Shown: positions 6,602 through 26,404 of the stretch, one piece after another
Layout of the letters: each line of letters starts with the position of its first letter
Numbering within the stretch: position 1 is the first letter of the stretch
Virus record (IMG/VR): IMGVR_UViG_3300042868_006792
Span: 1 to 28,442 of that record
Reading direction: 5' to 3' (one strand)
Length of the DNA: 28,442 bases
From: a virus
Made by a program: the position numbers and the translations under genes
The notes under the pieces: model-generated
The model's input: only the letters and a program-made list of their open reading frames with translations
Told to the model about the DNA's origin: nothing
The model's database searches: none

Positions 6602-7201
6602 ATGAAAAAAACATTAAAAGAAAGCCCTAAAGTTTTAGGGCTTGATGTTTCTACCAAAACAATTGGTTGGGCATTATTTGACATACAAAGTAGAGAATTA
6701 TTAGAACTAACCCACGTATCTCCAACACCAAAACCAAAGGAAGATAACAAAATAAAAGAATTACTCCTTAAAGGCGAAATCTTTAGAACTAAACTTTTAG
6801 AATATAAAGATATGGGGATTAGTAAAGTTATCATTGAGGAACCTCTATTAAACTCAAATAACGTTTATACAGTCCAAACATTGTTAAGGTTTAATACTTT
6901 GGTCACAAAAGAAATTTACGACGTTTTAGGGATAGTTCCTGACTTCATATCAACATATAACTCTCGTAAGTTTGCCTTCCCTGAATTAGTTAAAGAAAAC
7001 GACAAGGGTAAGTTTGTTTTATTTGGTGGTCTACCAAAAGACATTGATAAAAAACTAATCATTTGGGATTTAATCGCAAAAAAAGAACCTCAAATAACTT
7101 GGCAATACACAAGAAACAATACCCTCAAAAAAGAGAACTTCGACCAAACAGACGCTTATTGTTGTGTTTTAGGTCATATGAGACAAGAAAATATTTGGTA
7201 A
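6602..7201 (+). CDS. RuvC-like Holliday junction resolvase / crossover junction endonuclease
   Basis: This 199-aa protein has the RuvC-type RNase H-fold layout. The first strand is 'KVLGLDVSTKTIGWALFD' with the catalytic Asp at residue 15. The second acidic site is 'VIIEEP' (Glu79/Glu80). A C-terminal helix 'DQTDAYCCVLGH' carries Asp181 and Asp184, matching the D-x-x-D-A pattern that ends RuvC family active sites. All four expected carboxylates are present, so it is probably active as a Mg2+-dependent nuclease on branched DNA. In phages such enzymes resolve recombination and replication intermediates before packaging. It is the last gene of the plus-strand cluster, 3 nt after the tail gene and directly before a terminator, so it is probably expressed late with the tail genes. 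Confidence 0.87.
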   Translation: MKKTLKESPKVLGLDVSTKTIGWALFDIQSRELLELTHVSPTPKPKEDNKIKELLLKGEIFRTKLLEYKDMGISKVIIEEPLLNSNNVYTVQTLLRFNTLVTKEIYDVLGIVPDFISTYNSRKFAFPELVKENDKGKFVLFGGLPKDIDKKLIIWDLIAKKEPQITWQYTRNNTLKKENFDQTDAYCCVLGHMRQENIW

Positions 7202-7202
7202 T

Positions 7203-7232
7203 AAAAAACCCCTCTTAACGGAGGGGTTTTTT
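7203..7232. terminator. Bidirectional intrinsic terminator between convergent clusters
   Basis: A perfect stem of six A, CCCC and TC pairs with GA, GGGG and six T around a 6-nt loop (TTAACG at 7215-7220). It has a U-tract in both reading directions. It begins 2 nt after the resolvase stop and lies 20 nt from the stop of the convergent 1184-aa gene, so it can end transcription from both sides. Confidence 0.93.
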
Positions 7233-7252
7233 ATTTCTTACATCTTAAAGTC

Positions 7253-10200
7253 TTACACTGATGTAAATGTTGAGTAATTACTTTCAATCACACTTCCATT
7301 TATTAATGTTGCAGTAATTTTTATTCTATAATTATGTGTTGATGGAGGACACGGTCCATTCCAACCATTTATCGCATCACTACCAGGGAAAATAACCTCC
7401 CAATCTGTTGGTTGTGGATTACCATTAATCCAACTACCATTCGCAATGATATTTGTTTGAAGTGGGTCAATATCTGTTACAAACCAATGAATAAAGAACC
7501 CATCAGGACTACTACCCGGAGCATCAATATCTTCACAAAGTAACTCATAACTTAAAACATTTGTTGTGTTAAAATTATTTAAAATCCAAGTTAAATTTGG
7601 ACTATCATTTAAAGACGCACAAAATACTAAATTTTTAAAATTAACCGGAATTAAACCCCCTTCAGTATATGATGTACTATATAACGTCATTGATGGAATA
7701 CCTTTTTTACAAGTTGAGAAAATATCGATACTACATCCATTAGGAAACTCTGCATTACATTCAGTTTTAAACGTATACACAATATTACCACTACTTGTTT
7801 GCGAATACGTTACATATCCAGAAACATTTAATGTAACTATTGTTTCTCCATTAGTCGGTGGTATTAATATTACTTTTATAATATCCCCACTATTTGTTTG
7901 TAAAGTACCAAGATATATGTTAACATCAAAATTAGGACCAAACGAATAAACAAGACTTGTAACCCCATTTGGTGTAGTTATATATATCTCACCATTAACA
8001 TCAGCCGCTTTACAATCACTCCAATTTCTTAAATTTGTTGGACAATCACCATCAAGAGGTAGAACATCAAGAGCTTTTATACAATCTTCACAAGGTGTTC
8101 TATTTGGAATATTAGGGAATACTGTTACACCACCCGTAAAGTAATTATTAGGATATGTTACACCAAACCATTGGTTTTGTAATTGTTGTAAATTACTACC
8201 AATAGCCATTAATTGCCAACAAACTCTACTAGGTATGTGTAATACAACATCATTAATTAGATTACCAGGAACTGCCGGAACCGGTTGAATTATTACCGTT
8301 GTTTCAGATGGACGTCTAGTACCACAAATCATATATACGTAATACATAGTTTTTGATGTTGTCGATGGAGTCATTGTTGGTGTATTAGTCGGTGTTTGTG
8401 TCTGCGTTTGTGTCTGTGTTGGAGTTTTTGTTACTGTTTGTGTTGGAGTTTTTGTTACTGTCGGTGTTGGAGTTTTTGTTACTGCCGGTGTTGGAGTTTG
8501 AGTCGGTGTTACCGGAGGTGTACTACCAACAGTTGCTGTCGGAGTTGGTGTGCGTGTAGGTGTAGTAGTTATTGTAGGCGTTTGAGTCATTGTTTGAGTC
8601 ATTGTTACTGTAGGTGTCGGTGTATAAGTTGGTGTTGGTGTTGGAGTTGGTTTAGGACAAACACAATTAATACCGTAATCGATATACATTTCTACCAAAA
8701 CATTTGAATTATGCAATGATGTTGGGTCACAATTTGTTGTAACCGTTATACTATTATTAAAAGGGTCTAAAGTTACATTACCTGACCCAATTTGAGGACA
8801 CGATTCTATCAATGAAGTAACCGCTGAAAACCATAATCCATCGGTAGGATAGTCAGTTAAGGATGTACTATTATAAAATATTATAGAATTAACACAATCC
8901 CCAACTGTTACTTGCGCCGTAAATGTCGCTGCTGTTAATTCACAATTATAATAACCTGAGGTTAATAACGCTTGAGAAATTAATTCATTATATCCTTCAT
9001 AAAAATATTGTTTTGGATTAGATTCAATAACAATACTATCACTTAATCTCCCATCACAAACATTATAATAACCCGTAGAACTAAATTCCGTGTAACCTCT
9101 AATAGGTCTTAGTTTTGTTTTAGAACAACCCGCACTATCAACAATTCTAACTGAATAATCACCCGAAGGTAAATCAGGTATAGTCATAACTGTTGTCCCA
9201 ACAGTATCCCCATTAAAGTATAATGTAAATGGTGGAGTTCCATTAGTAATATAAGCAGTAATTAAACCATCATTATCATATGAATCAACCCCTAATAACT
9301 GAAAATCAATTGTGTTTGATTGACTAATTGTAAATGGTTGTATTTGTTTACAAAATAATGAATCTGTAACAATAGCAACATAATTACCACTAACTAAATT
9401 ATTAAACGTATACGAAGTTAATGATACATTATAAATAGATTGTCCATCAATCTGATATATATACGGTGGAGTACCTCCACTAGTTATATTTAAAATAACA
9501 GAACCATTATCACCATTACAAGTTGTTCCGGTGGTTGAAGTTATCAAATCAAACGTAACAACATTATTAATTGTATAGGCACTTGTAAATGAACAAGCCC
9601 CATTATCTGTAATATCTAAAGTATAATTACCTGAAGATAAATTATTAAAAATCCAACTTGACTCATAAACAGTGTTTGAATTTTGATTCCCTAATGAGTC
9701 CGTTAAGGTAAATGTATATGGTGAAACACCCCCAAATACCACAATAGGACCAATAGCTCCCGATAAATCATTACAAGTTGAATTTGTAATATTCACTGAT
9801 ATTACCGACATACCTTGTGGTGTCAATAAATTTGTACTTGTTGTAAAAGTACATAATCCAGCATCAACTACTTGAATTGTAAATCCTCCCGGACCTAACC
9901 CTGTAAAAATAACTGTTCTATCAAATGTAATATCCGTAACACCATTTGAACCTAAATAATAAAATGGTGCGGTACCACCAGTTATAATAATTTCAATCTC
10001 ACCATCTGAAGTAAAACAAGTTGGTTGTGTTAAATAAATTGCCCCTAATCCAACAGGGGATATAGTATTTATAACTGTCGTATTAGATATTGAACAATAA
10101 CTACTATCAGTTACGGTAACAGCATAAGTTCCTTCGGTTAATCCTGTTATACTATCATTTGTACTTCCGTTAGACCATAAATAAGTATAAGGAGCAGTAC

Positions 10201-10807
10201 CTGTCAATCCTGTTATAAATATTTTTCCAGAATTAACCCCACATCCGGCATCATCAACAGTATATAACCCAAAACTTAAGTTTGAAGAACTTTTAACAAT
10301 CACACTCTCAGATTTTCCCGTACATCCACCACCATCATTAGCAATAACATAATAGGTTCCAACAGATAAGTTGTCAAAAACATAAGAATTATTTGCTGGA
10401 TAAAATGTAGATATTAAACCCGTAATTTCACTATATAACGAAAATACAGCATTTCCGTAAAAATTACTCGTTGATGCCGTTAAAGACCCATTATTGGAAT
10501 CACAAATAGTATTACTAACATCTAATATTGAAACACAGGTTCCGCTAGATATATAAATGTTTACAGGCTGAACAGTATTACCCGAAATACAACTATCAAT
10601 AATATTAAATGAATAGGTGTCTGCTGATAAATTTGTTTGAGTATACGCAGTAACTCCAGCACCTAACGCGGTTGTTCCTGTAATTGGGGATAACCATTGA
10701 ATGGTGTAATCAGGAGCATCACCAAAAATATCAATGGTAAATGAACCTAAGTTAAGATTAGTACAATCCCCTGTTATACTAGCGTTATATGATAAAAGAC
10801 AAGACAT
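7253..10807 (-). CDS. Chimeric tail adhesin: seven SprB-like repeats, Pro/Thr tract, C-terminal PEBP-like domain (1184 aa)
   Basis: Residues 1-572 form seven SprB-like Ig-fold modules of ~75-90 aa, with recurring 'GG..PY.Y', 'L..G.Y...V.D...C' and 'QPTC' elements. Residues ~573-717 are unassigned. Residues ~720-815 are a Pro/Thr/Gln tract, ~816-1040 are unassigned and Cys-containing, and ~1046-1184 match the PEBP/YbhB (Raf-kinase-inhibitor-like) fold: 'SPNLTW', 'EDIDAP' (Asp1093/Asp1095), 'FIHW' (His1107), 'GPCPP' (1151-1155) and a following 'HNYR' (His1158). In cellular PEBPs these residues line an anion/phospholipid head-group pocket. It is last in the minus-strand tail cluster, after a 35-nt gap with a motif shared with the 1752-aa gene. 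A host-contacting fibre is inferred. The repeats and PEBP match are visible in the sequence; the ligand is unknown. Confidence 0.85.
7256..7672 (-). other. PEBP/YbhB-like domain at the C-terminus of the adhesin
   Basis: These are residues ~1046-1184 of the 1184-aa protein. The ordered motifs are SPxLxW, a D-x-D-A-P element, H-W after a hydrophobic strand, and GPCPPxxHxYR. This is the order and spacing of the phosphatidylethanolamine-binding protein family (YbhB/YbcL-like in bacteria). Both pocket Asp residues and both His residues are kept, so ligand binding may be retained. Confidence 0.82.
8363..8650 (-). repeat. Pro/Thr/Gln-rich low-complexity tract in the adhesin gene
   Basis: About 96 codons (residues ~720-815) encode almost only Pro, Thr, Gln, Val, Met and Lys ('TPTPTPT', 'TQTMTQTP', 'VTKTPT'). 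It separates the SprB half from the PEBP half and is likely an extended linker. Reading the opposite strand gives a spurious Cys/Trp-rich frame. Confidence 0.88.
8416..8505 (-). repeat. 24-bp in-frame tandem repeat
   Basis: Three near-identical 24-bp units at 8416-8439, 8440-8463 and 8464-8487, plus a partial fourth unit to about 8505. Each encodes an eight-residue T-x-x-V-T-K-T-P-type unit. Units differ only at positions near their ends. The length is a multiple of three, so gain or loss of units keeps the frame. Confidence 0.85.
8630..8651 (-). repeat. 22-bp inverted repeat, right copy
   Basis: Reverse complement of 4747-4768. It encodes residues ~720-726 of the 1184-aa protein at the start of its Pro/Thr tract, in the same codon phase as the left copy. 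Confidence 0.8.
9092..10807 (-). repeat. Seven tandem SprB-like modules
   Basis: Protein-level repeats at about residues 1-87, 88-174, 175-249, 250-330, 331-416, 417-497 and 498-572 of the 1184-aa protein. Most share a Cys near the module start, 'G.I...I.GG..PY', and 'L..G.Y.V.V.D...C'. They are diverged at the DNA level, so this is an old duplication rather than a recent tandem array. Modules 1 and 2 are the least typical. Confidence 0.78.
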
Positions 10808-10842: not shown

Positions 10843-13800
10843 TTAAAATGTTTGACAAACAATATTAAATTGTACCCCAACATTTATTGTTATAGTTTTC
10901 ATTATTTGTGTTGATGAACAGTTAGTATCCCATATTCTAACCATAACGGCATTGCTATCCTCATACCCAAGAATATTCCCTGACATATCTTCATAACGAT
11001 AATCATATCCTAATGAAATCATTTGTTGTAACGTTTGGTCTAATGAGTAATTCCAATCATTTAAACAAGGATAACTATCTGTTATATTATGTGATACACA
11101 ATTAGGTGTATTATAAAGACCAGCACCATAAAAGAATGGTGATTGAGGAATATTAACACCATTTATACGTATGTCAACAAACCATTGGCTACTAATTGAA
11201 TTAAAATCACAATTAAAAAGGGCCGGTGTCGGTCCAAGAGGAGGGTTAAGAGAATTACCAACAACCTCAGACAATACCAAATCAAATCCTTTATCTGGAT
11301 ATCTATCACACAATGTTGACCAAACAGTACAATTGTTTAGATAAATACTACCTATAAATTTACAAGGTTTACAAAGAATCGGTACTAAATCACAACCTTT
11401 TTGTCTTCTCCACACAAATTTTTGTCTATGAAAAATTGAATTCTCTAATTTAACTCCAGTGTTCCAAATAGTACTTGCGGGTATCATTTGTTCAACTAAA
11501 CGAATCCAATAATCCCCCATACCACTAACATAATCAATCATAGTGTCGTATGTGAAATTATCATTTTGAACTCCCGCTAAAGATTCTGACTGTAAATAAT
11601 TCCAATATATTGACGATAACGTTGGGTATCCACTTGTTCCCCCATCAGTAGCGTATTGTCTATTTCTAACATTAATTGTATTTCTCCAAAATGTTTGTGC
11701 AAACTCAAAAAACGATTCTTTTAATGGTTGAGGATTAATAACCGTTGAATCCACCCCACCTCTATGTGGGTATGCAGAAATAGGGTCAGGATTACATCTT
11801 GTTGGTGCAACATAACCTAAACCTTCATTTGCAATAGGATAGTTAAACTGTCTAGACATATACCAAACATCATACACTAATCCTTGTGCAGGGTTTAAAT
11901 ATAAATCAATATTTTTAACATTAATAACTAAATTTTCATTATCAGCATTATATAATGCGTTATATCCTCCGTCTAAATTATTTCTTGTACCAAATTCTGT
12001 ATCAACCCAACTTTTATTATTATCAACAGCAGATGTTAAATTGTATCCCAAATCAGTGAATGGGAATTTTCTATAAACATCTAAATATTCTTGACCATAA
12101 GTGAATGGAGCTAATTTTGTTTGATAATCCGGATTTGACCCTGTAAATACACTATTTGTTAAATCAGGTTGTTCTGGCGACCTATGTTTAGGTGTTGATT
12201 CAAACCATCCACTACCCATTTGATAATAATATGTTTCAGAATTAACCGGTGACTGAGGATAACCATTATTACTAATTGGAAAATCAGTTTTAGTCACATT
12301 AGCTTCTTGAAGAATCGATGTTGTTGTAAAACCTGAGTATTGATTACCTTGTATAGTAAAAGTATAACCACCGTCTAACGTAGGTAATATTTTACTATAG
12401 GTTCCTCCAGATATGTTTGCGTATTGTAAGTCAAAATCTGATATATTTATTTTTTGGTCCGCCAAATAAACATATTCATTAAACTCAACTAATGCGTCCG
12501 GAGCACCAATCAATCTCATTAAAGTTTCAATTGATTTTCGAGTCCCTTTAGATTTAAACAAATAAGCCGAATTAAGAACTAAATTTTTATAATATTGGTA
12601 ATTTAATTCATCGGGTGTTTGAGATTGCCCAACTCCACTAAATTTAGATTTATCCACATTTTTTTGACCAAACACTGACGATAAAAAATCATCATTAGTT
12701 ATTGGTGACATATTTGTAGACCAACCTAATGTTTGAGATAAATTTTTTAATAACTGTGATGGCATATCATTACCTGTATTATAATTTACAGAATTCATAT
12801 AAGCCAAACCATTTATAAATTTCTTAGTTTCATCAAAACTTCTACCATAAATTTGTAATATTTTTTCAATTTTTTGGTCAGAAGTATCAAATTCTTTAAG
12901 TGAATCAGTTGTTAAAAATCTAGAAACAAGATTTGTTTGATAACCATCAAAAGACAAACTGATTTCATTTAACGTTGTTAAATAAGTCGTAAACGAATTT
13001 GTTAAAATATCTAAATTCCAATTACCATATAATGGCCAAGTAACTAATTTATTTTGTATATAATAAGTCCCATCATCATTTTCATTTGGAACTTTAAAAG
13101 TTGCGGTATAAATAGGAACTATATTTCTGTTTAATAAAAATCTTTGAACCTCATCTAAATCTTCATTAAAAACTCTGTTAACTTGATAGTCATTTGGTCT
13201 AATAATTAAATCTTCATATGTTTCGGTTTGACTTGGAAAAATATTACCTTTAAGATATATTTTAAGAACCCCTGTTGTCAAAGACGTTGTTGGGTCAATA
13301 TGTGTAACATCATAACCACTACCACTATAATATAATGAATATTTGGTAAATTGAGTTGTCATATTTCTTAAAGGAGAAACTTGAATTTCTCTTAACTCTA
13401 AATTTCTAGTGGAGTTAACTGTAAAATCAACATCAAATGGATTTCTAATTTTTGGGACACTTATTTCAATACTAGTTTCATCAGTGATTGGATTATAAGA
13501 AATATTTGTCGCTGTTGTACCGGTTATATAATTCTCATCCATAAAAGTAACTTCTAACGCCGCAGGGAATTTACTAATAATGGTTTCAACTGATGTTGAG
13601 ATTCTTTTAACCATTGACCCGTATGAAGTAAAATTAGTTACTTGAGTTAAATCAAAATTTGGATATACTTTAAAATTATTTTCAAAAATAGCTTTTGATT
13701 GTGCAATACTATCAACACCTAACCCTTCTAAATTTATTGGGTTTGAAAATGCTCCTGTTGTAAAAGTTCTATTTGATTTTTCAGTAATACCTGTAGTAAA

Positions 13801-13920
13801 CTCAAAATTACCTTGCGTCAAACCTCCCCCCGCAACAAGTTGGAATCCAACTAAATTATCAGAGAAGGTACCTGCACCTGAGGCTGTTTGTGGCGGACAC
13901 GTAAATTTTTCTATAGCCAT
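10843..13920 (-). CDS. Large baseplate/tail structural protein, tail-protein-I-like motif (1025 aa)
   Basis: This is an unnamed virion protein. Around residues 455-505 it has 'AYLFKSKGTRKSIETLMRLIGAP' followed by 'FNEYVYLAD'. The small-residue, 'KGTRKSIE', amphipathic helix, 'LIG' pattern recalls tail protein I (gpI) of P2-like phages, where a similar 'RGT...' helix occurs. That protein works next to the gpJ homologue, and a gpJ/gp6 homologue is in this cluster. Residues ~810-855 contain 'TIWNTGVKLENSIFHRQKF' and 'VWRRQKGC', then Cys843, Cys850 and Cys853 (C-x6-C-x2-C), a possible metal site. The C-terminal 170 residues look like a separate beta domain. ATG overlaps the preceding TAA by 1 nt (TAATG), implying translational coupling. 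Baseplate role likely; gpI relationship tentative. Confidence 0.72.
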   Translation of the reverse strand: MAIEKFTCPPQTASGAGTFSDNLVGFQLVAGGGLTQGNFEFTTGITEKSNRTFTTGAFSNPINLEGLGVDSIAQSKAIFENNFKVYPNFDLTQVTNFTSYGSMVKRISTSVETIISKFPAALEVTFMDENYITGTTATNISYNPITDETSIEISVPKIRNPFDVDFTVNSTRNLELREIQVSPLRNMTTQFTKYSLYYSGSGYDVTHIDPTTSLTTGVLKIYLKGNIFPSQTETYEDLIIRPNDYQVNRVFNEDLDEVQRFLLNRNIVPIYTATFKVPNENDDGTYYIQNKLVTWPLYGNWNLDILTNSFTTYLTTLNEISLSFDGYQTNLVSRFLTTDSLKEFDTSDQKIEKILQIYGRSFDETKKFINGLAYMNSVNYNTGNDMPSQLLKNLSQTLGWSTNMSPITNDDFLSSVFGQKNVDKSKFSGVGQSQTPDELNYQYYKNLVLNSAYLFKSKGTRKSIETLMRLIGAPDALVEFNEYVYLADQKINISDFDLQYANISGGTYSKILPTLDGGYTFTIQGNQYSGFTTTSILQEANVTKTDFPISNNGYPQSPVNSETYYYQMGSGWFESTPKHRSPEQPDLTNSVFTGSNPDYQTKLAPFTYGQEYLDVYRKFPFTDLGYNLTSAVDNNKSWVDTEFGTRNNLDGGYNALYNADNENLVINVKNIDLYLNPAQGLVYDVWYMSRQFNYPIANEGLGYVAPTRCNPDPISAYPHRGGVDSTVINPQPLKESFFEFAQTFWRNTINVRNRQYATDGGTSGYPTLSSIYWNYLQSESLAGVQNDNFTYDTMIDYVSGMGDYWIRLVEQMIPASTIWNTGVKLENSIFHRQKFVWRRQKGCDLVPILCKPCKFIGSIYLNNCTVWSTLCDRYPDKGFDLVLSEVVGNSLNPPLGPTPALFNCDFNSISSQWFVDIRINGVNIPQSPFFYGAGLYNTPNCVSHNITDSYPCLNDWNYSLDQTLQQMISLGYDYRYEDMSGNILGYEDSNAVMVRIWDTNCSSTQIMKTITINVGVQFNIVCQTF

Positions 13921-24051: not shown

Positions 24052-25890
24052 TTATGAAAAGTTAACAGTTTTTAAATTTTTAACTCTAATATTAATATCT
24101 TTGTTTGGATATTTAATTTGATAAGTTTGATTTGGTTGAGCAAAAATCGTATCATCAATTAATTCAATTTGTTTTGTTGCACTATCAATATATCTTTGAG
24201 ATGTTTGAGATGATGAATATTGTCCCCCTACTTGATTGAATACTTGAATATCCGATAATGAAATTACCCCATTTTCACTTTGTATTAATCTTCTTAATTC
24301 GGATATATTAACATTTTCACCCATTTGTCTATTAAGAGGGTCAAAATACTCAGAAACAATTGTGATTATTTGAGAAATAACGGTTCCTTGATTTTGTGTA
24401 TTATCTAAAACAACATCAATATTAAAACTTAAATCAATAACATTCGCACTTTGTATTGACACATAGTCATTTATCATACGATAATTTGATAAATAATTTG
24501 CAACATTATTTTTCAGAGTGTTTGAAATAACTTCGGTTAATCTACCGGTTTCATCATACGATAACATTTGAACTATTATCTTATTATTATTTTCAGTTAT
24601 TGAAACTTTTGCTGGTGCCCCAAATTGTGATGGCATTGTTCTAATTAACGATTCATAATCATTTACCGTAACCGCTCTTTTTTGTGATGAAAAATTATAA
24701 GCAACTAAATTTCTAACTTCTTCAGTTGTTGGGAAACTTGCTCCACCAATTGCCGCAGTTACATTGGTACATCTTAATGAGTTAACCACACTTGTATTAA
24801 CACTATCTGAAGGACCATTAACAAAAAATGATACCGTTCCTATTTGTGTTATAGCATTTACACCAATATTACTACCAACACCACCACCAACTCTATATTG
24901 AACAAATAAAGTTGTATTTGATTTTAAAGAACTACCTAACGCTAAATTATTAGAATACTTATATAAATTTAATTGATACCCATCTCTCGCAAATTCTCTT
25001 AATTGTTCGTCCGCAGATTGTGAACCTCCCCCAAAAGTCATTTTTAAAAATCCTTCAGGTGTAAATTCTGTAATAAATTTAGTACTCGTTTGAATATACT
25101 TACCAACTTTAATTCCCGGTGCGTCCGATACTTTTGTAGGGTCTTCAACAAACACTCTATCTTCCGCTAACGCATCAACTTCATACCATCTATTATCTAA
25201 CCCTAAAAACTCTTGTACTGATGGAATATTTGTATATTGTGTACTATCTTTTAATAATACACTAGTTACCCCTAATACATTTTTATCAGGTAAAAATAAT
25301 TCATAAAAAGGTTTAACATCATTTGGTGTTATAACTTTTTTAAATACTTTTGTGGTTCCATTAACCACAGTTTCTCGTTTAGTGATTGTATAATTTAATA
25401 ATTTGTTATTAGAGTCAAAATTAGGTATTTTTAACCTATTAGGAAATCCCTCACCATTTATTGGTGAAGCAAAATCAATATCATAAACAGTTTCAAATGC
25501 TTGACCCGCACCATTAACCTGAGACCCTCTTCTTAGAATTCCACAATATCTCAAGTCTTCTTTATCCCCATATGCCGGAACTGTGATTGAAAAATCAACT
25601 AATGCAACAGATGGTCTCATACCCGGAACTTTTAATCCGTAGGTTTTTGCTATATTAAAAACTGATGACCTTTGTTGAGCATATTGAAGAACTGTCTCTT
25701 GAATACTTCTATCAATATTAAACTGTAAGTTGTCAGTTACCGCAGCATTTAAATCTAATAATACCGAAAAAACAGACGCATCGTTAAAGTTTTGAATAGT
25801 GTCCGGATAATAGGTTTTAGTAAAGTTAATTAACTCTGTTCTAATTGATTGGAAATCTCTTGTAGTATAGGAAATTTTTTTGTTTGCCAT
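24052..25890 (-). CDS. Baseplate wedge protein, T4 gp6 / P2 gpJ family
   Basis: At 612 aa it is close to T4 gp6 (660 aa). The N-terminus has the family's start: 'YTTRDFQSIRTELINFTKTYYPD', then 'DASVFSVLLDLNAAVTDNLQF', and 'QRSSVFNIAKTYGLKVPGMRPS', the helix that precedes the first beta domain in gp6/BaseplateJ proteins. Around residues 410-430, 'QKRAVTVNDYESLIRTMP' matches the conserved 'RAVT..DY..L' of the family. gp6 dimers link baseplate wedges into a ring in contractile tails. The gene follows the gp25-like stop by 4 nt, and gp25-gp6 adjacency is classic. This makes a contractile-tail (myovirus) virion the best reading. Confidence 0.92.
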   Translation of the reverse strand: MANKKISYTTRDFQSIRTELINFTKTYYPDTIQNFNDASVFSVLLDLNAAVTDNLQFNIDRSIQETVLQYAQQRSSVFNIAKTYGLKVPGMRPSVALVDFSITVPAYGDKEDLRYCGILRRGSQVNGAGQAFETVYDIDFASPINGEGFPNRLKIPNFDSNNKLLNYTITKRETVVNGTTKVFKKVITPNDVKPFYELFLPDKNVLGVTSVLLKDSTQYTNIPSVQEFLGLDNRWYEVDALAEDRVFVEDPTKVSDAPGIKVGKYIQTSTKFITEFTPEGFLKMTFGGGSQSADEQLREFARDGYQLNLYKYSNNLALGSSLKSNTTLFVQYRVGGGVGSNIGVNAITQIGTVSFFVNGPSDSVNTSVVNSLRCTNVTAAIGGASFPTTEEVRNLVAYNFSSQKRAVTVNDYESLIRTMPSQFGAPAKVSITENNNKIIVQMLSYDETGRLTEVISNTLKNNVANYLSNYRMINDYVSIQSANVIDLSFNIDVVLDNTQNQGTVISQIITIVSEYFDPLNRQMGENVNISELRRLIQSENGVISLSDIQVFNQVGGQYSSSQTSQRYIDSATKQIELIDDTIFAQPNQTYQIKYPNKDINIRVKNLKTVNFS

Positions 25891-25894
25891 AATT

Positions 25895-26353
25895 TTATAT
25901 ATTAATAATTACAAAGTCACTACTATTAAACACATCATTATTAATGATATAATCAATTTTAACTTTTGCAGTATGTTCATTATTTGAGATGTTAGGTACA
26001 CGAAATACTCTTTCATCGTTATCGTTTATATAACTACCTTTATCTTCGTCTGTATCTGAAGCCGCGGTAATTGAAATATTAGTTATTCTTATGCCCGGTA
26101 GATATACACCAGCTGCCTCTCTTATTTCCGTTTCTATTTCTGAAAAAGTAGGTCCGTCTAATGGTTCAAAGATAAATTCATATAACCTGGTACCAAAATC
26201 AGGTAAGTAATATCTACTACCTTTTTTTGATAATAAAAGGTGTATTAAATTAGACCTAATTTCTTGGTCACTATAATCTGATAAATCTAAATATTTCCCA
26301 TCATAAGAATCTCTGAAAGGAAAAGTTAACCCATATGTTGTTCCATCTGCCAT
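25895..26353 (-). CDS. Baseplate wedge protein, gp25 / gpW family
   Basis: This short protein (152 aa from ATG 26353) has the family core 'EIRSNLIHLLLSKKGSRYYLPDFGTRLYEFIFEP', followed by 'EIETEIREAA' and 'PGIRITNISI'. The 'KGSR...PDFG..L....FEP' element is diagnostic of the GPW_gp25 family, which nucleates baseplate wedges and sheath assembly. A TTG at 26398 would add 15 residues. I prefer the ATG because 'ADGTTYGLTFPFRDS' is a typical beginning and because ATATTTATA lies just before it, as at the 812-aa gene. The TTG lies only a few bases from the terminator of the upstream nrdA. The gp6-like gene follows 4 nt later. Confidence 0.92.
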   Translation of the reverse strand: MADGTTYGLTFPFRDSYDGKYLDLSDYSDQEIRSNLIHLLLSKKGSRYYLPDFGTRLYEFIFEPLDGPTFSEIETEIREAAGVYLPGIRITNISITAASDTDEDKGSYINDNDERVFRVPNISNNEHTAKVKIDYIINNDVFNSSDFVIINI

Positions 26354-26404
26354 AACTATAAATATAGTGTCGTCATTATTTTTTATAAATACCCCCAAAA
26401 TAAA

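Follow-up and report, generated by a model that had tools for sequence, protein, structure and literature searches.

PEBPs occur in every domain of life; what they do at the molecular level in bacteria is unsettled. They share a conserved quintet of residues, Asp, Asp, His, His and Arg (PMC8793217). The bacterial YbhB and YbcL proteins (PF01161; TIGR00481; structures 1fjj, 1fux and 3n08) are free-standing and about 158 aa long. Phages encode free-standing PEBPs too: those of phrog_5139 (YbcL-like, Escherichia phage PhiR34_1) are stand-alone genes of about 159 aa, found as temperate-phage cargo beside YbcK and YbcM. Fusions are described in actinobacteria, where a C-terminal PEBP is joined to pectate-lyase-like, FN3 and GSDH modules (PMC8793217). 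Modular phage receptor-binding proteins (PMC13082707, PMC10253068) have a conserved N-terminal part and variable C-terminal heads.

The protein reported here follows the same modular plan, with a PEBP as its head. It is encoded in the window, i.e. the whole 28-kb virus record that was analysed, whose relatives include contigs of 308 kb (G001) and 272 kb. Its tip resembles the YbhB/YbcL proteins in fold, in motif order and in both Asp and both His, but it is fused to a fibre, is 20-27% identical to them, lacks the Arg, leaves the C-terminal stretch of the profile unmatched, and falls under the TIGR00481 cut-off. It matches phrog_5139 at E 2e-6, and those proteins, although phage-encoded as well, are not tips of tail proteins. 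The actinobacterial fusions likewise place the PEBP at the C-terminus of a multidomain protein, but they are cellular and enzyme-linked, with neither SprB repeats nor tail genes. Finally, BFVD entry A0A6S4P7W4, a 724-aa 'Cell wall/surface repeat protein' from a different phage (uncultured phage MedDCM-OCT-S31-C1), has a PEBP-like fold (Foldseek E 2.8e-6, 25% identity), on which its annotation is silent; this comparison is one of fold match and annotation. The view of a first-pass annotation of this DNA, that known PEBPs are free-standing, holds for most of them, the exceptions being the actinobacterial fusions and this last phage protein.

In the open-licence papers searched, no PEBP was found as a phage tail protein or fibre tip, and the eCIS receptor-domain catalogue is silent on the domain. 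The window tip had no tblastn match in 50,697 phage records, the tip of a second carrier (see below) had only weak matches in phage records, nearly all of them free-standing PEBPs, and a tip profile search of genome contigs found no relative. PEBP is a new head fold on a known plan of modular fibre tips.

The 1184-aa protein and its PEBP tip

The gene lies on the minus strand at 7253-10807 (an ORF with an ATG start, Pfam matches, and orthologs in many viral contigs), and encodes a fibre- or adhesin-like tail-region protein of 1184 aa. The N-terminus and SprB-type repeat shaft (residues 1-570, 9098-10807) match PF13573 in 3 stretches (Pfam-A, 55.4 bits for a cut-off of 28, E 4.5e-15) and form the conserved part, 94-64% identical between PEBP-bearing forms. 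Then come a conserved post-repeat module (residues 571-716, 8660-9097), matched by profile in nearly all shaft relatives reaching that far, a Thr/Pro-rich linker (residues 717-818, 8354-8659) visible in the sequence and in many relatives, and two small Cys-containing neck domains (residues 819-1024, 7736-8353), whose neck1 and neck2 profiles are found with and without PEBP. A hinge, IDIFSTCKK (residues 1025-1036, 7700-7735), leads to the PEBP-fold tip (residues 1037-1184, 7256-7699), all of these features being on the minus strand. A PEGA Pfam match was set aside: it lies over the repeats, and none of its stretches passes alone. No T9SS C-terminal sorting domain (TIGR04183 or other CTD) scored above cut-off in the protein and the orthologs scanned, and no signal-peptide-like N-terminus was seen by eye in the 1184-aa protein. 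Separately, five places in the genome of the 642-kb uncultured phage LR756502.1 (516787-518130) resemble the SprB shaft, and such shafts may therefore be common in huge phages.

Reading the letters alone, the first-pass annotation had described a virion-type phage protein, with SprB modules and a Pro/Thr linker, that ends in a PEBP domain, and had suggested a profile search and a structure prediction. Both agree with the PEBP domain. PF01161 matches residues 1063-1167 (window 7307-7621) at 41.8 bits and E 1.7e-10 in Pfam-A, above the curated cut-off of 24 bits; the last ~30 positions of the profile are without a match in the phage tip. NCBIfam TIGR00481 (YbhB/YbcL) gave E 2.5e-7 and 30.6 bits, under its cut-off of 57.75 bits, which leaves the tip outside that subfamily. 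With phmmer against the PDB, E. coli YbcL (1fux) and C. trachomatis CT736 (3n08) were each found at E 0.0012, and a profile built from the phage PEBP domains reached 1fux at E 1.7e-4. The proposed motifs occur in the proposed order: SPNLTW at 1069-1074, DIDAP at 1093-1097, HW at 1107-1108, and a motif of the GPCPPxxHxYR type at 1151-1161. Of the span first given for the domain, 7256-7672, the end stands; the start has to be moved by some 10 residues, to near residue 1037, just past the hinge.

AlphaFold2 modelled the tip with a pLDDT of 91.2 and a pTM of 0.85 from a 36-sequence alignment. As bacterial PEBPs sit in that alignment, the model depends on sequence homology, and with 3 phage sequences alone it was unusably poor (pLDDT 48); the Pfam and PDB sequence matches, for their part, are independent of the model. 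The top Foldseek matches of the model were all bacterial PEBPs (3n08 at E 6.9e-9). VIA comparison gave Z scores of 12.6-16.0 against bacterial PEBPs and at most 9.0 against all others, the best-matching pair with 3n08 having Z 16.0 over 128 residues at 2.6 Å and containing the two-sheet PEBP fold; VIA also finds the model weakly Ig-like. As judged from sequence matches and this homology-assisted model, residues 1037-1184 are a true PEBP-fold domain.

Gene neighbourhood, phage type and host

Read from the right edge of the window, the minus strand encodes the large subunit of ribonucleotide reductase (truncated at the edge), a gp25-like baseplate wedge protein (25895-26398; phrog_261, PF04965), a gp6-like baseplate wedge protein (24052-25890; phrog_219 at E 9e-23, PF04865, 26% to the baseplate wedge protein of Flavobacterium phage immuto), a 1752-aa protein, more proteins without an assignment, a 1025-aa protein and the PEBP gene. 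The 1025-aa neighbour (10843-13920, minus strand), next in the array, is conserved beside the PEBP gene and is weakly similar, by blastp, to immuto CDS 161. The gp25-gp6 order is shared with immuto, whose array ends in annotated tail fiber and tail spike genes; between the two arrays gp6 and gp25 are clear homologs, and the remaining proteins are weakly similar or not similar. In the 308-kb relative G001, sheath and tube genes lie ~40 kb from the same array. From the gp25-gp6 array, the nearby sheath and tube genes and the immuto order, we take the PEBP gene to be, most likely, the last gene of a fibre module. The gene content most likely indicates a T4-like contractile-tailed jumbo phage, and the SprB repeats, together with immuto as nearest isolated phage, point to a probable host among the Bacteroidota.

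Alternatively, the protein might not belong to the virion at all and act in or on the infected cell, the baseplate neighbourhood being a coincidence. No homolog has a proven virion location, the convergent neighbour is RuvC-like, and the second carrier adjoins DNA polymerase B. Yet the gp25 and gp6 array is kept on the same strand across relatives, and the protein has a large repeat-linker architecture; we hold this explanation to be very improbable. We infer instead that the protein is part of the virion and that its head binds a receptor.

Some other features of the region were recorded. The RuvC-like gene (6602-7201) is convergent with the fibre gene, and the gap between them holds a GC-rich hairpin (7205-7250), which has runs of T on both strands and looks like a shared terminator. 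By eye, lookalikes of GIY-YIG or HNH-type homing endonucleases are inserted between the RuvC-like gene and the gene of an 810-aa tail protein in loci L066 and L067 (both 9835-10539, minus strand) and L079 (9612-10436, minus strand).

Presence, loss and replacement of the tip

A search with the shaft (residues 1-717) detected 68 viral loci that carry this 717-aa stretch. PEBP is present in 8 distinct sequences of the fibre gene, window included, and again on a second carrier. An assembly chimera is ruled out by the recurrence of the fusion in many contigs and in 8 distinct sequences.

The hinge is the exact point at which the tip is gained or lost. In L065, L066 and L067 the shaft is 83-68% identical and both neck domains are kept, and the protein ends exactly at the hinge, at '..STC'. 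Right after the stop in L065 (L065:9153-9260) lies a relic, PCPPSGIHNYRIK, the core of the second PEBP motif, from which we conclude that the PEBP was deleted in this locus. That L065 is a mere missed ORF was ruled out, as this 13-residue relic is all that remains after the stop. Other loci exchange the tip: L087 switches at the hinge to ~300 residues of another domain, which looks two-copy by eye, and among the more distant shaft relatives L089 ends in a YncE-like propeller (slightly under the YNCE cut-off), L106 and L116 have DUF285 (BspA-like) repeats as tip, and others end in tips without an assignment. The existence of PEBP-less forms means that the head is dispensable in some phages. The protein family thus combines a conserved N-terminal part with an exchangeable C-terminal head, as phage receptor-binding proteins do.

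The second carrier is a protein of 878-896 aa without SprB repeats, with PEBP at its C-terminus and a gene beside DNA polymerase B. Its PEBP exists in 3 distinct forms, and 3 close orthologs end at '..YFI', the exact junction. The ortholog in the 308-kb phage (744 aa, 61% identical) stops where PEBP would start, and the window itself encodes, on the plus strand at 627-2840, a 737-aa PEBP-less paralog that ends at the same junction in an alignment of ends; the figure is 33% for the N-terminal part of L020 against the G001 copy of this 627-2840 gene. In the records showing both carriers (G001 and 3300042878_001080) PEBP is on the first carrier only. The PEBP copy of 3300042878_001080 is degenerate and escapes Pfam.

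Shaft and PEBP have different histories. The shaft tree joins L019 with L062 and L003 with L021, with full support; the PEBP tree joins L018 with L062 and groups L003 with the window. Enforcing the clades of the other part was rejected (AU p 0.0125, 0.0044 and 0.0005, values somewhat optimistic because the clades were picked after the identities were seen). This conflict indicates that the PEBP tip recombines. Between L018 and L062, the shaft is 76% identical (dS 0.97) and the PEBP 85% (dS 0.41). Values of dN/dS were about 0.16-0.66 for neck and PEBP, mostly above the 0.11-0.27 of the shaft, and all were below 1; averaged over the PEBP domain, dN/dS gave no sign of positive selection. All phage tips form a single clade apart from 25 bacterial PEBPs, a set without Bacteroidota (support 100/100, stem 3.3). 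One clade on a long stem is consistent with a single capture followed by spread, and a test of which carrier came first gave an AU p of 0.45.

Could the domain be a structural cap or decoration that makes the fibre more stable or attaches to surfaces other than the host (mucus, particles), as many Ig-like phage domains do, with no part in host choice? Its presence or absence between close relatives, the erosion of the pocket in some copies and the weakly Ig-like fold would all fit. However, two unrelated carriers bear PEBP at their outermost end, and repeat and propeller-like domains replace it at the same place, so that we consider a cap unlikely. The protein is, in our opinion, probably a long tail-associated fibre or adhesin with an exchangeable PEBP head. 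The SprB-type repeats, the flexible Thr/Pro linker and the two neck domains would display the C-terminal head, which would meet the cell surface and help select the host. Phage lineages add, delete or replace the head at one hinge, and the population would tune its host choice in this way; the same head also sits on the unrelated second carrier. The receptor-binding head first proposed from the sequence thus receives indirect support from presence and absence at the hinge, tip replacement, the second carrier and recombination; its lipid ligand fares less well, as follows.

Pocket residues and the candidate ligand

According to the residue table, the window protein keeps both pocket Asp (D1093, D1095) and both His (H1107, H1158), in agreement with the first reading. 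The conserved Arg of the family, after the second His, is Asn1159, and the window tip therefore holds 4 of the 5 residues of the quintet. Fewer remain in L019, L047 and L021: Asp1095 is replaced by Asn in the first two, and L021 has Leu in place of His1107, has lost the DAP and GPCPP motifs, has its second His displaced by one, and has its Cys lost or moved. Altogether the pocket is eroded in 3 of the 11 distinct phage PEBP copies. In the L021/L069 family, the pocket residues are gone and the PEBP domain is retained, below Pfam detection.

In the judgement of a review (PMC8793217), lipids do not suit the PEBP cavity, which is too small and too polar for them. Together with the pocket erosion in several homologs, this means that the lipid ligand suggested at first is not supported. 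Erosion of the pocket while the domain persists also disfavours a strictly conserved catalytic or phosphate site. It bears as well on an enzyme-like head, in which the His/His/Asp cluster would modify a surface sugar or a nucleotide-like group, akin to depolymerising tailspikes. Most copies, the one in the window among them, retain Asp1093, Asp1095, His1107 and His1158, and catalysis has been argued for free-standing PEBPs (PMC8793217); against this, the domain persists with the family Arg changed to Asn, with the second Asp lost in L019 and L047, and with both His and Cys lost or moved in L021. An enzymatic head appears improbable to us.

For a head that binds a receptor, the likeliest ligand would be a small group, polar or anionic, bound at the rim of the pocket, e.g. 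a phosphate-bearing sugar or head group, and variable loops would possibly take over binding where the pocket is eroded. A more specific version is tentative and rather doubtful: the PEBP pocket would have been recruited as a receptor-binding site that recognises a glycan or head group bearing phosphate on the envelopes of Bacteroidota, and the cassette would change host range by moving between fibre proteins that are unrelated.

With a swappable tip, matched pairs with and without PEBP, and copies with intact or eroded pockets, the binding partner of the PEBP pocket becomes a testable question. The finding adds a head fold to the exchangeable fibre tips of jumbo phages, few of which have been isolated from Bacteroidota.
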